Positions 19,539 to 58,192 of a stretch of 64,000 bases of DNA are shown one piece after another. The position numbers and the translations under genes were made by a program. The stretch's first letter is position 1. Each line of letters starts with the position of its first letter. The notes beneath the pieces are model-generated. The model did no database searches, was not told where the DNA came from, and saw only the letters and a program-made list of their open reading frames with translations. The stretch comes from Sediminimonas qiaohouensis DSM 21189 (GTDB lineage: Bacteria; Pseudomonadota; Alphaproteobacteria; Rhodobacterales; Rhodobacteraceae), in contig NZ_AUIJ01000001.1 in the NCBI RefSeq assembly GCF_000423645.1, positions 372,001 to 436,000 on the forward strand. Reading direction: 5' to 3'.

Positions 19539-19633
19539 AACGCGTCCGGCGTAGCCGCACGGCGATGCGCGGCTTGATCAACGACAGCAACAGGCCAGAT
19601 CACCGCGTGCCCCCTTTTGCCCTGCGGCGGTGA

Positions 19634-21322
19634 CTAGCTGTGCTCTTCCGCCGCCGTCGCGGCCAGGGCCCGGTTGTACGCCTTGAGCGCATCGACATGG
19701 AACAGCGCGCCCAGCAACTCGGGCGCATCCTCTTTTCCGCCAAGCCGCACAACGGGGATAAACTCGGCGCCGCTACGCTCGAACACCGGCAGCGCCGCCT
19801 CAAGCGTGGCGCCGGCATCCAAGTATGTGCCCGCCTCGATCATGTCCCAGCAGGCTGCCTCGGGTGCCGCGCCCGGCGCGTCCGGTGCGCGCATCACGCC
19901 GGTGCATCGGAACATCGCCAACAGGTAGGTCTGTGGCCCGGCGGCCAAGTGCAGGTTGCGCTCTTCGAGCTGCGTCAGGAAGAACGAGCGATCCACCAGG
20001 CGCGAGCTGAGCGCGGTGGAAAGCGACACCGCCACCATCACCGCCAGCCCGGTCTGCCAGTCGCCGGTCATCTCGAACACGATAAGGGTCGTCGAGATCG
20101 GCGCGCCCAGAACCGCCGCCGCAACCGCCCCCATCCCCGCCAACGCATAAAGCGTGGCCGAGCCCGACACCGAGGGCGCAAGCCCCGTCGCGATCAGCCC
20201 GAAGGCAAGCCCGGTCAGCGCCCCCACCATCAGCGAGGGCGAGAAAACCCCGCCCCCCATGCGCCCGCCAAAGGTGATCGCCACGGCAACGGTTTTCAGC
20301 ACCGCAAAAACCACCGCCTCGTGCAGGACAAGCTGCCCGGTCAGCGCCGCCGAGGTCGTCTCATACCCCACGCCGATGATGTGGGGGAATTGCGTCGCAA
20401 TCACGCCCAGAAACAGCCCCGACACCGCCGGTCGCAGCCAGCGCGGCACATGCAGGCCTATCTGGAGGTTATTACCAACACGCTCGGCCACGAAAATCGC
20501 CCGCATCAGCACCGTCGCCACCAGCCCGCACACCAGTCCCAGCAGAAGAAACGCGGGCAATTCGACATAGAATTCCAGCGCACTGGAATCGGGCAGCGTG
20601 AATTCGGTCACGTCGCCAAAGGCAAGCCGCGTGATCACCGTGCCGGCCACGCTGGCGATCACGATGGGCGCGAAGGCATGCAGCGCGAAGTGGCGCAGCA
20701 CCACCTCAAGCGCGAAAAGCGCCCCCGCGATCGGCGCGTTGAAGCTGGCCGAGACCGCCGCCGCCACCGCGCAGCCCAGCAAATCGCGCCCGGTGATGCC
20801 GTTGGCGTTGATCTTGTTGCTAACCCATGACGCGATCACGCCAGCCATGTGCACGACCGGCCCCTCCCGCCCCGAAGAGCCGCCAGTGGACAGCGTCACC
20901 AGCGAGGCGAACGCGCTGGCCACGCCCTCGCGCATCTCGATACGGCCATCATGAATCGCCGCCCCCTCGATCACGTCGGCAACCGAGCGCACCCGCCCGT
21001 CGGGCGTGAAATGGTGCAAGATCGCCCCGACGACCAACCCGCCAGCCACCGGGATTGCCACGATCCAGATCCATGGCAGCGTTTCGGCAAAGCTGTGCAG
21101 GTGGGTGGTGTCATCGGTCCCGTAAAGGGATGATTGCAACGCCGTGATCCCCTTGCGAAACAGCAGGGCGGCCACGCCCGCGCCAATGCCGATCGCCAGC
21201 GCGATCAGCCAGAATTGAAACTGGCTTGGCCCGCGGTGACGCAACAGGTGCCACATGTCCCGCGCCGCCTGTCCGGCCTGGGCCACGAGTTGCCGTATCA
21301 AGGGTGGGTCCGGCTGCGCCAT
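19634..21322 (-). CDS. CLC-family chloride channel or transporter with a C-terminal CBS segment
   Basis: A 562-residue integral membrane protein with ten or more hydrophobic segments and a cytoplasmic tail holding one CBS-like repeat (about residues 485-555). The gating-glutamate motif GSSGREGPVVH is intact near residue 148, and GGRMGGGVFSPSLMVGA is the conserved GxFxP region. In the helix that carries the internal proton glutamate of exchangers (EE in E. coli ClcA), the sequence reads LFALEVVLRHF, with Val at the second position, the state seen in CLC channels. A canonical GSGIPE is also missing. It may therefore conduct chloride passively rather than exchange protons. It faces DUF427 tail to tail and diverges from the FAD-oxidase gene. 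Confidence 0.9.
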   Translation of the reverse strand: MAQPDPPLIRQLVAQAGQAARDMWHLLRHRGPSQFQFWLIALAIGIGAGVAALLFRKGITALQSSLYGTDDTTHLHSFAETLPWIWIVAIPVAGGLVVGAILHHFTPDGRVRSVADVIEGAAIHDGRIEMREGVASAFASLVTLSTGGSSGREGPVVHMAGVIASWVSNKINANGITGRDLLGCAVAAAVSASFNAPIAGALFALEVVLRHFALHAFAPIVIASVAGTVITRLAFGDVTEFTLPDSSALEFYVELPAFLLLGLVCGLVATVLMRAIFVAERVGNNLQIGLHVPRWLRPAVSGLFLGVIATQFPHIIGVGYETTSAALTGQLVLHEAVVFAVLKTVAVAITFGGRMGGGVFSPSLMVGALTGLAFGLIATGLAPSVSGSATLYALAGMGAVAAAVLGAPISTTLIVFEMTGDWQTGLAVMVAVSLSTALSSRLVDRSFFLTQLEERNLHLAAGPQTYLLAMFRCTGVMRAPDAPGAAPEAACWDMIEAGTYLDAGATLEAALPVFERSGAEFIPVVRLGGKEDAPELLGALFHVDALKAYNRALAATAAEEHS

Positions 21323-26372: not shown

Positions 26373-26385
26373 CGGACCTGCCGAT

Positions 26386-26615
26386 GAGCCGCGCAGTGCC
26401 CGACCGCGGGGTGGGCGCAGCAACGCTTGTGGATCTCGCTTTATGCCAGCCAAATACCTCCTCGCTATCAATCATTTGATACGCCCGCAAAAGCGCCCGC
26501 CCGTCACGCCGAAGGCGTGCCGAGGATAAACGGCGCACCTCTGGTGCGACGGGGGCGGTCGGGCGCTGCGCGGCGGCGCGTACCACGCCTTGATCCCGCG
26601 CAGGGCACTATATCG
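26386..26615. repeat. Dispersed intergenic element, copy A
   Basis: A gene-free block between the convergent ends of nadC and the FAD-GcvT gene, found again near 42.5, 45.9 and 55.9 kb. Shared landmarks, in order on the plus strand: GCAGTGCCCG..GGGTGGGCGC, CTTTATGCCAGCCAAATACC (from 26439), a long inverted repeat, then CGCGCAGGGCACTATAT. The inverted repeat AGCGCCCGCCC (26492) / GGTCGGGCGCT (26557) encloses two hairpins, CACGCC-GAA-GGCGTG (26505-26519) and CGCACC-TCT-GGTGCG (26534-26548), giving a three-way branched stem. A 144-codon minus-strand frame through it is shared with copy B but is broken in copies C and D, so I do not call it a protein. Confidence 0.75.
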
Positions 26616-42474: not shown

Positions 42475-42706
42475 GGTTGAGGGGCCGCGCTGTGCCCGGC
42501 CACCGGGTGGGCGCGGATACGGGTATGTTACGCACTTTATGCCCGCCAAATACTTCTTCGTTCTCAGCGGCGTGATACGCCCGCCAAAGCCCCCGCCCGT
42601 CACGCCGGAGGCATGCCGACGATAAGCGGCGCACCTCTGGTGCGACGGGGGCGGCCGGGCGCTGCGCGGCGGCGCGCAAGCGCGCCTCGATTCCGCGCAT
42701 TGGTGC
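42475..42706. repeat. Dispersed intergenic element, copy B
   Basis: The closest relative of copy A. It has the same landmarks: GCCGGGTGGGCGC-like start, CTTTATGCCCGCCAAATACT (from 42535), the outer inverted repeat, and the two inner hairpins CACGCC-GGA-GGCATG (42601-42615) and CGCACC-TCT-GGTGCG (42630-42644). One change in the first hairpin turns a pair into a wobble on the minus strand, so the fold is kept. It fills the first part of the trxB to sat-cysC gap; 42707-42944 shows no gene. Confidence 0.75.
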
Positions 42707-42944
42707 CAAACCCCAAAGTCACAGCGCCCTCACCTGAACTTGCACCCCGAAATGCAAAGGACCGCCCGATAGGATCGCCTTGCGCAGCGCCCGCGCCCCT
42801 GACCTCCCCGACCGGGAAGGCAGGGCGCGAACACTGACTTGCTTGCGGCGTCTACCGCGCAAAAATGTCCCCCAAAGGGGCAAAAAGGCGCCACATTCGT
42901 CCGAAATACGCGGTATCGGCAAAGACAGCTTGAATTTGCCCCCT

Positions 42945-45810: not shown

Positions 45811-45994
45811 GCTGAGAAGCCGCGCATAGTCGGGCAGCGGTGCGGCGATCCTCCGCTGGTGCGGGGGGCACTTTATTCCAGCCAAATCCGAATAAGATCA
45901 GAGCCGTGCGCAGGTGTCAGCCCGATCGCCGTGCCGGGGGGCGGCCCGGCGCTACGCGCCTTTACTCCGCGCAGGGCGTTATATGAGATGTCTG
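45811..45994. repeat. Dispersed intergenic element, copy C (diverged)
   Basis: Lies between the convergent ends of the sodium-channel and DUF1150 genes. It keeps GCCGCGCATAGTCGGGC, CTTTATTCCAGCCAAATCCG (from 45871), GGCGGCCCGGCGCTACGCGC and CTCCGCGCAGGGCGTTATAT, in the same order as copies A, B and D, but the inner hairpins are gone. No gene is seen in the 279-bp gap. Confidence 0.65.
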
Positions 45995-53032: not shown

Positions 53033-53108
53033 GCCTAACCTTTGATTTATACTCCGCCACGCGGGAGTTGGCCGGGGCATTGCCGGTTATGACCTGGAAC
53101 TGCTGAGA

Positions 53109-53184
53109 CAATCGGCGGCCCGCGGCCGCTATTTCGCGCGGGGCACTGTATGAGAGGCCATCACCAACCCGCCGATGCGCGCCC
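53109..53184. repeat. Fragment of the dispersed intergenic element
   Basis: GGCCGCTATTTCGCGCGGGG followed by CACTGTAT corresponds to the right end of copy D (GGCCGCTATTTCGCGCAGGG, CGCTATAT). The next part ends GATGCGCGCCCCCTCAACC, shared with the fragment at 1809-1827. It abuts the cmk stop. Confidence 0.5.
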
Positions 53185-55790: not shown

Positions 55791-55976
55791 GGTTGAGGTG
55801 CTGCGCAGTGCCCGGCCGCCGGGTGGGCGCTGCAACCCTCGTGTAGCGCGCTTTATGCCAGCCAAATACCTCCTCGTTTTCGTCGGCATGATACGCCGCA
55901 AAAGCGCCCGCCCGAGGGGGCGGTCGGGCGCTGCGCGGCGCCCTTCGGCCGCTATTTCGCGCAGGGCGCTATATCG
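55791..55976. repeat. Dispersed intergenic element, copy D (inner hairpins absent)
   Basis: Between the aroA start and the trmB stop. It keeps GGTTGAGG, GCAGTGCCCGGCCGCCGGGTG, CTTTATGCCAGCCAAATACC (from 55851), the outer inverted repeat AGCGCCCGCCC / GGTCGGGCGCT (55903-55932), and the end CGCGCAGGGCGCTATAT. The two inner hairpins of copies A and B are cleanly missing, which leaves a plain hairpin. The rest of the 348-bp gap shows no gene. Confidence 0.75.
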
Positions 55977-56952: not shown

Positions 56953-58131
56953 TCAGACCTCTTTTTCCAGCGCGCCGGCCAGGTCCGTCCGCTCCCAGCT
57001 AAAGCCGCCATCGGCGTCCGGGGCGCGGCCGAAATGGCCGTAGGCGGCGGTGCGGGCATAGATCGGCCGGTCCAGCGACAGATGCTCGCGGATGCCGCGC
57101 GGGGTCAGGTCCATCACCTTGGGGATCGCCACCTCGATCCTTTCGGGCGGCACCGCGCCGGTGCCGTGCGTGTCGGCATAGATCGACAGCGGCCGCGCCA
57201 CACCGATGGCATAACTGAGCTGAATCGTGCACCGCTCGGCCATGCCGGCGGCGACCACGTTCTTGGCCAGGTAGCGCGCGGCATAGGCCGCCGAGCGGTC
57301 CACCTTGGTCGGGTCCTTGCCCGAGAACGCGCCGCCACCATGCGGGGCCGCGCCGCCATAGGTATCGACGATGATCTTGCGCCCCGTCAGCCCTGCGTCG
57401 CCATCGGGGCCGCCGATCACGAAGGTGCCGGTGGGGTTCACCCACCATTCGGTGCGATCGGTCAGCCATTCCGCCGGCAGCACGTCGCGGATATGCGGCT
57501 CAACGATGCGGCGGATGTCGGCGCTGCTGAGGTCCTCGCCCGCGTGCTGCGTGGACAGAACCACCTGCAGCACCTCGACCGGCTTGCCATTCTCGTAGCG
57601 CAGGGTGAGCTGGCTCTTGGCATCAGGGCGCAGCATCGGCTCGGCCCCCGATTTGCGCACCTCGGCCAAGCGGCGCAGGATGGCGTGGGAAAACTGGATC
57701 GGCGCGGGCATCAGCGCGTCGGTCTCATCGGTGGCATAACCGAACATGATGCCCTGATCGCCCGCCCCCTCGTCGCCGCGCTCGCCCGTCACGCCCTGCG
57801 CGATATGGGCGGATTGCTCGTGCAGCAGGTTGGTGATCTCGACCGTCTGGTGGTGGAACTTGTCCTGCTCATAGCCGATATCGCGGATGCAGTCGCGCAC
57901 GATCGGATCGATCCGGTCCATGAACGCATGCAACCTGCCCTGGTCCGACAGGCCTATCTCGCCGCCGATGACAACCCGGTTGGTGGTTGCAAATGCCTCG
58001 CACGCGACCCGCGCCAAGGGCTCTTCAGTCAGCAGCGCATCGAGAACCGCGTCGGAAATGCGGTCGCACACCTTGTCGGGGTGCCCTTCCGAGACGGACT
58101 CGGAGGTGAAAAGATAGTTCTGTCGTGTCAT
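56953..58131 (-). CDS. metK: S-adenosylmethionine synthase MetK
   Basis: A 392-residue tetrameric enzyme that makes SAM from methionine and [23 protein letters not shown] opens the protein; [33 protein letters not shown]-like [19 protein letters not shown] and [20 protein letters not shown] are the signatures of the ATP and methionine sites. The ATG at 58131 has its GGAG ribosome site inside a SAM/SAH riboswitch, so translation should fall when SAM is high. A dedicated promoter overlaps the end of lnt. TrmB, a SAM-using enzyme, follows. Confidence 0.97.
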
Positions 58132-58134
58132 GAA

Positions 58135-58182
58135 AGTGCTCCGTTATGATCTGCCCGTCACGCCAGGAAGCCGTTGTGACAG
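58135..58182 (-). promoter_or_regulatory. SAM/SAH riboswitch controlling metK
   Basis: On the minus strand the sequence runs GTCACAACGGCTTCCTGGCG, TGAC, then a short linker and AACGGAGCACT just before the metK ATG. The stem GTCAC/GTGAC, the CAACGGCTTCCTGGC loop and the distal GGAGCA segment match the SAM/SAH riboswitch class, known upstream of metK in Rhodobacterales. The GGAG is the ribosome site and can pair with CTTCC to form the pseudoknot, giving translational repression. Identification is by consensus recall; the match is nearly exact. Confidence 0.88.
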
Positions 58183-58192
58183 GGTGCGCAAC

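Follow-up and report, generated by a model that had tools for sequence, protein, structure and literature searches.

RUP of Streptococcus pneumoniae, a 107-bp IS630-Spn1 MITE, resembles the element described here in being short, intergenic and high in copy number, with IS630-like TIRs and a TA-containing target (PMC2229807). It belongs to one species, however, and is without a conserved branched core, whereas the core of our element covaries, is modular and is found family-wide. Correia/NEMIS elements, which have a folded transcript, are likewise TIR-bounded MITEs with TA ends, and their size classes differ by an internal segment of ~50 bp; they nonetheless have another host, other TIRs and another transposase, and are without a cloverleaf-like core or a CTTTAT loop (PMC2229807). 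The CIR of Caulobacter and Brucella, likewise an intergenic repeat of Alphaproteobacteria, has two structured arms and is conserved between genera, but it carries a GANTC motif and no known TIR (PMC2229807), and a search for our element in 141 other alphaproteobacterial genomes gave no match. MRSC-65-2, a candidate mobile sequence with dozens of copies per genome, also has a covarying structure, but this is one long stem with UYCCGG repeats rather than a multi-arm fold, and it occurs in diverse phyla rather than in one family (PMC11109978). Mobile insertion cassettes are transposase-less DNA between IS ends, and some of the ends described below flank passenger genes in this manner; such cassettes need no structured core, whereas the majority of the present units have the core and are gene-free (PMC3281130). 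We consider the IS630 MITEs (RUP) and the modular Correia/NEMIS elements closest in kind. BOX elements are modular repeats whose internal segments may be present or absent, as in the element, but their sequence is unrelated, and the modules of the element are helical arms of one fold. We class the element with the MITEs, as ones whose modular core covaries and occurs family-wide.

Copies in the window and in the genome

The window, a 64,000-nucleotide stretch of Sediminimonas qiaohouensis DSM 21189 (the home genome), contains at 26.4 kb a gap that holds one copy, copy A, of a scattered, folded, non-coding repeat with at least 50 copies in the genome. BLAST of the copy A interval against the whole genome gave 52 matches on both strands; within the window it found copy B at 81.9% identity over 216 bp, copy D in two halves and some short stretches at other places, and a repeat finder independently placed copies A, B and D in one group. 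Covariance model R1, built from 31 sequences of several genera, scored at least 65 copies in the home genome. It recovered all six places singled out by an earlier, sequence-only reading of the window (near 26.5, 42.6, 45.9, 55.9, 1.8 and 53.1 kb) as four full copies, all on the plus strand, and two fragments. Copy A (26380-26611, 109.7 bits), a member of the BLAST family, and copy B (42476-42708, 93.6 bits) are full structured cores with P1, H1, H2, H3 and H4; copy C (45811-45982, 90.8 bits) is a type II core without H2/H3, and copy D (55792-55972, 142.8 bits) a type I core of the subfamily that lacks H2 and H3. The fragments are a collapsed type II core on the minus strand (1747-1825, 34.3 bits, E 2.4e-5) and a marginal plus-strand match to H4 and the 3' tail (53074-53149, 20.8 bits, E 0.015), an 85% repeat of the copy D tail. 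A seventh place had been missed: alignment with locus L122 of the sister species Sediminimonas sp. LH_M13 (G002) revealed at 19554-19637, on the minus strand, the collapsed relic of a whole MITE (CTAGTCACCGCC ... GGCCTGTTGC ... AAGCCGCGCATCGCCGTGC) that is intact at the orthologous place in that species. The home genome also holds a third subfamily at L078 2062-2244, which resembles the type of genome G012 (P1 with GCCCGG, trailing CCGGGCA).

Comparison with the sister species showed insertions that are present in one species and absent from another. The site of copy A is empty in G002, where the gap is 119 bp against 309 bp in the home genome, and the site of copy B is empty in both sister species (G001 and G002), the orthologous gap in G002 measuring 88 bp. 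Loci L120 and L129 of G002 have relatives in the same gaps of the home genome, and at other sites the two genomes share insertions that have decayed. Because the species do not share conserved intergenic sequence, the comparison yielded no empty site resolved to a single nucleotide. At one junction (L129 440-460 against L304 ~1375), the upstream gene in G002 takes its stop codon TAG from the CTAG junction of the MITE, whereas in the home genome it stops with TGA at a slightly different end.

Anatomy of the fold

In oriented copies, P1, a helix of 20 bp, encloses H1, H2 and H3, and its 3' arm is followed by H4 and a trailing CCGCGCA. The outer inverted repeat proposed for copy A is present as P1, in which GCCGCGCAGTGCCCGACCGC (26388-26407) pairs with GCGGTCGGGCGCTGCGCGGC (26555-26574), an arm supported by both BLAST and alignment A2; the helix is 95% paired in that alignment, with three pairs changed on both sides. 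The largest arm, H1, had been overlooked. Its 10-bp stem pairs GGGTGGGCGC (26409-26418) with GCGCCCGCCC (26493-26502), five of the ten pairs changing on both sides in alignment A3, and its loop of ~75 nt contains a conserved CTTTATGCCAGCCAAA; in copy A the conserved loop reads CTTTATGCCAGCCAAATAC (26439-26457). Among 100 aligned copies from several genera, 92 have TTTAT and 83 have CTTTAT, against 1 in shuffles. An IHF-like site in this loop, TATCAATCATTTG, was discarded as a candidate, being confined to part of one subfamily.

Both small hairpins described earlier are present in copy A, namely H2 (CACGCC-GAA-GGCGTG, 26505-26519) and H3 (CGCACC-TCT-GGTGCG, 26534-26548), each with 97% of cells paired; H3 changes from A-T to C-G on both sides in six sequences. 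A single long arm, which the minimum-energy fold of one sequence makes of H2 and H3, was rejected, as pairing then fell to 79% from the 97% of two hairpins and one position never paired. H4 (GGCG..CGCC here, 26575-26589; GCGCGC..GCGCGC, GGCCtgcGGCC and others in other copies) has 97.9% of cells paired and two-sided changes. The trailing CCGCGCA (26596-26602) can pair with TGCGCGG (26567-26573) to form an alternative stem around H4, paired in 98.9% of cells across genera, with a CG/GC two-sided change in ten sequences and a CCGGGCA/TGCCCGG pair in G012; since this TGCGCGG belongs to the 3' arm of P1, the alternative stem and P1 are mutually exclusive. All of these copy A features lie on the plus strand. 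Fold stability alone was not taken as proof, because z was -4.1 for copy A and +0.2 for a type II copy.

Every combination of arm losses occurs: copies lack H2 and H3 (L008-L012, L016-L018, L021), H1 (L013-L015, L020, L027), or H1 together with H2 and H3 (L079, L081). The earlier proposal that copy D had itself lost both inner hairpins as a unit needs correction. They are absent as a unit, but the junction GCCCGAGGGGGCGG is common to at least nine home-genome copies and most sister-species copies, so copy D is a member of a subfamily and not an individual loss. Short direct repeats mark the ends of the H1 deletions (AGTGCCCG/AGCGCCCG in type I, ATCG/ATCG in type II), a pattern that slippage across the hairpin would leave.

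Covariation and strand

In an alignment of 21 home-genome sequences, 94% of cells pair and two-sided changes number 28, where shuffles give 10. The covariation test that the earlier reading had proposed, run on an alignment of the 31 sequences from several genera, found two-sided changes in 11 of 35 pairs; these amounted to 90 cells, compared with 33.7 after shuffling, and none of 500 shuffles scored as high. Because shuffles ignore shared ancestry, we place most weight on the number of two-sided pairs and on a control in which partners were slid by 1-3 columns, which gave 5-14 cells in the same alignment. Within each genome, moreover, paired positions are better conserved than the H1 loop and the flanks. 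One instance had been misread: copy B was said to keep its CACGCC hairpin through a G-U pair, but the change of GGCGTG to GGCATG leaves a C.A mismatch on this strand, and the real compensatory change in copy B lies in P1 (A-T to G-C, columns 18/175).

These substitutions bear on whether the repeat is decayed protein-coding sequence, a reading to which we attach next to no probability. GC-rich copies are often free of stops in one frame, as it would predict, but the lengths of the copies are distributed evenly among the three frames, whole arms of ~47 nt are present in some copies and missing from others, and substitutions on one side of a helix are matched on the other, in keeping with the sequence-only reading.

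Wobble states allowed the two strands to be compared. G.T outnumbered A.C by 12:1 at subfamily founders and by 44:18 among minority states, with p-values that are optimistic given related groups and an alignment made to fit the model. The excess of G.T on the CTTTAT strand favours selection on one folded strand, either RNA or single-stranded DNA. Folding energy was better on this plus strand in 49 of 56 Sediminimonas copies and 8 of 9 in G012, but in only 1 of 16 in G020, where the opposite strand folds better. We do not claim an RNA role, because the bias in folding energy reverses in G020 despite the wobble counts. We find it rather improbable that the copies are a dispersed family of small-RNA genes with their own promoter: the constrained fold, the near-invariant CTTTAT loop and the strand bias in Sediminimonas and G012 would suit such a family, but the plus strand is the less stable one in G020, Rfam holds no relative, and dozens of copies are decayed.

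Carrier MITEs and IS630

The flanks of better-preserved copies share GTGTTCRCCACCTGACA ends; searched for as a pattern, these turned up 27 times in G002 and 9 times in the home genome. Complete copies in G002 sit inside ~500-bp MITEs that end in GTGTTCRCCACCTGACA with CTA..TAG outside, and TIRs are present at both ends in units L119 440-937, L120 361-860 and L121 118-614; in the home genome the TIRs are mostly decayed. The MITE units measure 300-520 bp and contain no ORF and no transposase. A test for target-site duplication found CTA to the left and TAG to the right at most ends, without a clean empty site. A scan of named genomes located GTGTTCRCCACCTGACA ends in many Rhodobacteraceae, with core-bearing units of 300-400 bp in Roseinatronobacter, Rhabdonatronobacter and Maritimibacter. 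In Histidinibacterium lentulum, of a related genus, ends and flanks of this type bound a 1171-bp IS630-family element whose transposase matches NF033545 at 278 bits (cut-off 100), and in G002 an intact IS630 is flanked by TAG and has ends related to these; the core is not derived from the IS630 element. Since only decayed TIRs and IS630 fragments remain in the home genome, current IS630 mobilisation there is not supported.

The same IS630-type ends also flank single passenger genes, with no transposase, at L184 898-2861, L174 4260-6134, L202 1898-3133, L167 1508-2531 and L175 4980-5758. Most of these genes are without Pfam domains; that of L174 encodes a T5orf172/MUG113 domain and resembles the candidate defence proteins PDC-S57 and PD-Lambda-1. 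IS ends around passenger genes, the arrangement of a mobile insertion cassette, were found for L184, L174 and L175 and not for the window copies. In G002, L129 453-3149 carries within a MITE arm a segment of ~2.1 kb with a MATE-family efflux gene, lying between copies of GGGACGAAG that resemble a 9-bp duplication.

Between the same outer arms the core can point either way, with GGCCTGTTGCGGAC inverted repeats as its borders. Loci L119, L121, L123 and L126 of G002 include MITEs with the core inverted relative to the outer arms, so that the segment between the GGCCTGTTGC repeats either flips or was independently inserted. Other genera depart further from the Sediminimonas pattern. Copies in G012 have an outer CTTTTTCGTCAGAAG-type repeat in place of IS630-type ends, and cores in G020 form head-to-tail pairs and tandem arrays at ~262 bp; IS630 is weak or absent in these two copy-rich genomes, none being found in G020. 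The G020 pairs (L261, L262, L266, L267, L269) have a GTAGGGTGGG..CCCACC palindrome in the spacer, though this genome is without a Y1 transposase.

Distribution

The covariance model matched 16 of 41 genomes of relatives, all of one family. An order-level sample gave matches in 143 of 197 genomes and 74 of 89 genera, all in the Rhodobacteraceae, and a class-level sample in none of 141 genomes outside the family; copy counts per genome are lower bounds. Searches of Rfam, including HEARO/omega RNA, returned no match at the element at the gathering score or at E up to 10, a phage collection contained no match, and no description was found in the open-access literature searched. The element may be a sizeable one that was previously unrecorded: about three quarters of the sampled Rhodobacterales genomes carry it, often in many copies, yet it has no Rfam model. 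Giving it a name would account for much of the repetitive DNA between genes in a major group of marine bacteria.

Proposed mobilisation and genomic context

The sequence-only reading had offered a non-coding mobile or RNA-level element. The non-coding mobile part is borne out by dispersal, by presence and absence between sister species, by location inside TIR-bounded MITEs with IS630-type ends, by strong covariation and by lengths and indels that are out of frame; an RNA-level function is not established, as copies lie in either orientation relative to tandem genes and the strand bias in folding energy is reversed in one genus. The analysis establishes a clade-specific, high-copy non-coding repeat family with a covarying branched fold, TIR-bounded units that carry it, and a gene for an IS630 transposase whose element has similar ends. 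We regard it as probable that in Sediminimonas and its haloalkaliphilic relatives the repeat travels as the core of MITEs mobilised by IS630 in trans. An IS630-family transposase supplied in trans would recognise the GTGTTCRCCACCTGACA ends and insert at CTAG/TA sites, presumably duplicating the target. Insertions just past stop codons would survive and those in promoters would be lost; H1 and H2+H3 would be deleted whole through slippage between short flanking repeats, some of the deletion variants being re-amplified afterwards. That the same core with its CTTTAT loop recurs in genera with different outer ends suggests that the core is kept because something recognises the folded single strand. 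What recognises the folded strand inside a bacterial MITE becomes a testable question, given a constrained fold shared by different transposon carriers.

IS630 is not the whole story, because in other genera the outer ends of the core differ or the core lies in tandem arrays; either different transposons captured the core repeatedly or it spreads by its own means. As the core can be inverted with respect to the MITE ends, it is possibly a separate nested element, and a less probable reading makes it a mobile or amplifying unit of its own, lodged in unrelated MITEs and moved by an enzyme that recognises the folded strand. The different ends in G012, the arrays in G020, the two orientations within otherwise identical MITEs and the founder wobble states all speak for this, but the core ends have no consistent boundary or target duplication, and in several genera the core, whole or as a remnant, is a regular component of MITEs. 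We consider it unlikely, to a similar degree, that a Rhodobacteraceae-wide structured element with a strand-specific partner of its own hitchhikes on unrelated transposon ends and multiplies in tandem in some genera; if true, it would be a parasite of parasites, selected for its fold and not for coding or transposon ends. A self-mobile core is also disfavoured by the absence of IS200/RAYT-type transposases: PF01797 (Y1 transposase) was absent from G000, G002, G012, G020, G011 and other copy-rich genomes. On this result we reject RAYT/IS200 mobilisation and hold it highly improbable that the copies are REP/BIME-like palindromes spread by RAYT (Y1 HUH) transposases, despite their extragenic position, palindromes, modularity, high copy number and BIME-like pairs in G020; units of 180-500 bp with TIRs also argue against that origin.

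Returning to MITEs mobilised in trans, the gene context of 54 copies, mapped by means of a gene caller that had learned codon usage from the window, matches the survival of insertions that spare promoters. All 54 are intergenic, with 24 in convergent, 27 in tandem and 3 in divergent gaps; divergent gaps are avoided (7 of 15 element-free window gaps are divergent, p=0.0005), and 23 of the 27 tandem-gap copies are nearer the 3' end. The convergent gaps, and the proximity of most copies to stop codons, would equally suit a host-selected cis-acting 3'-UTR element, such as an mRNA stabiliser or a bidirectional terminator. This we judge quite unlikely, because orientation in tandem gaps is neutral (12 same, 15 opposite, p=0.70), and also since copies are missing from orthologous gaps of the sister species and no regular T-tract follows H4. 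A terminator scan, too crude to decide the matter, found a hairpin with a T-tract at 9 of 54 cores, and past H4 the consensus reads TTGATTCC rather than a run of T. Elsewhere in the window, a SAM/SAH riboswitch (58137-58185, minus strand, 58.2 bits), a known and ordinary element, lies just upstream of the gene at 56953-58131.
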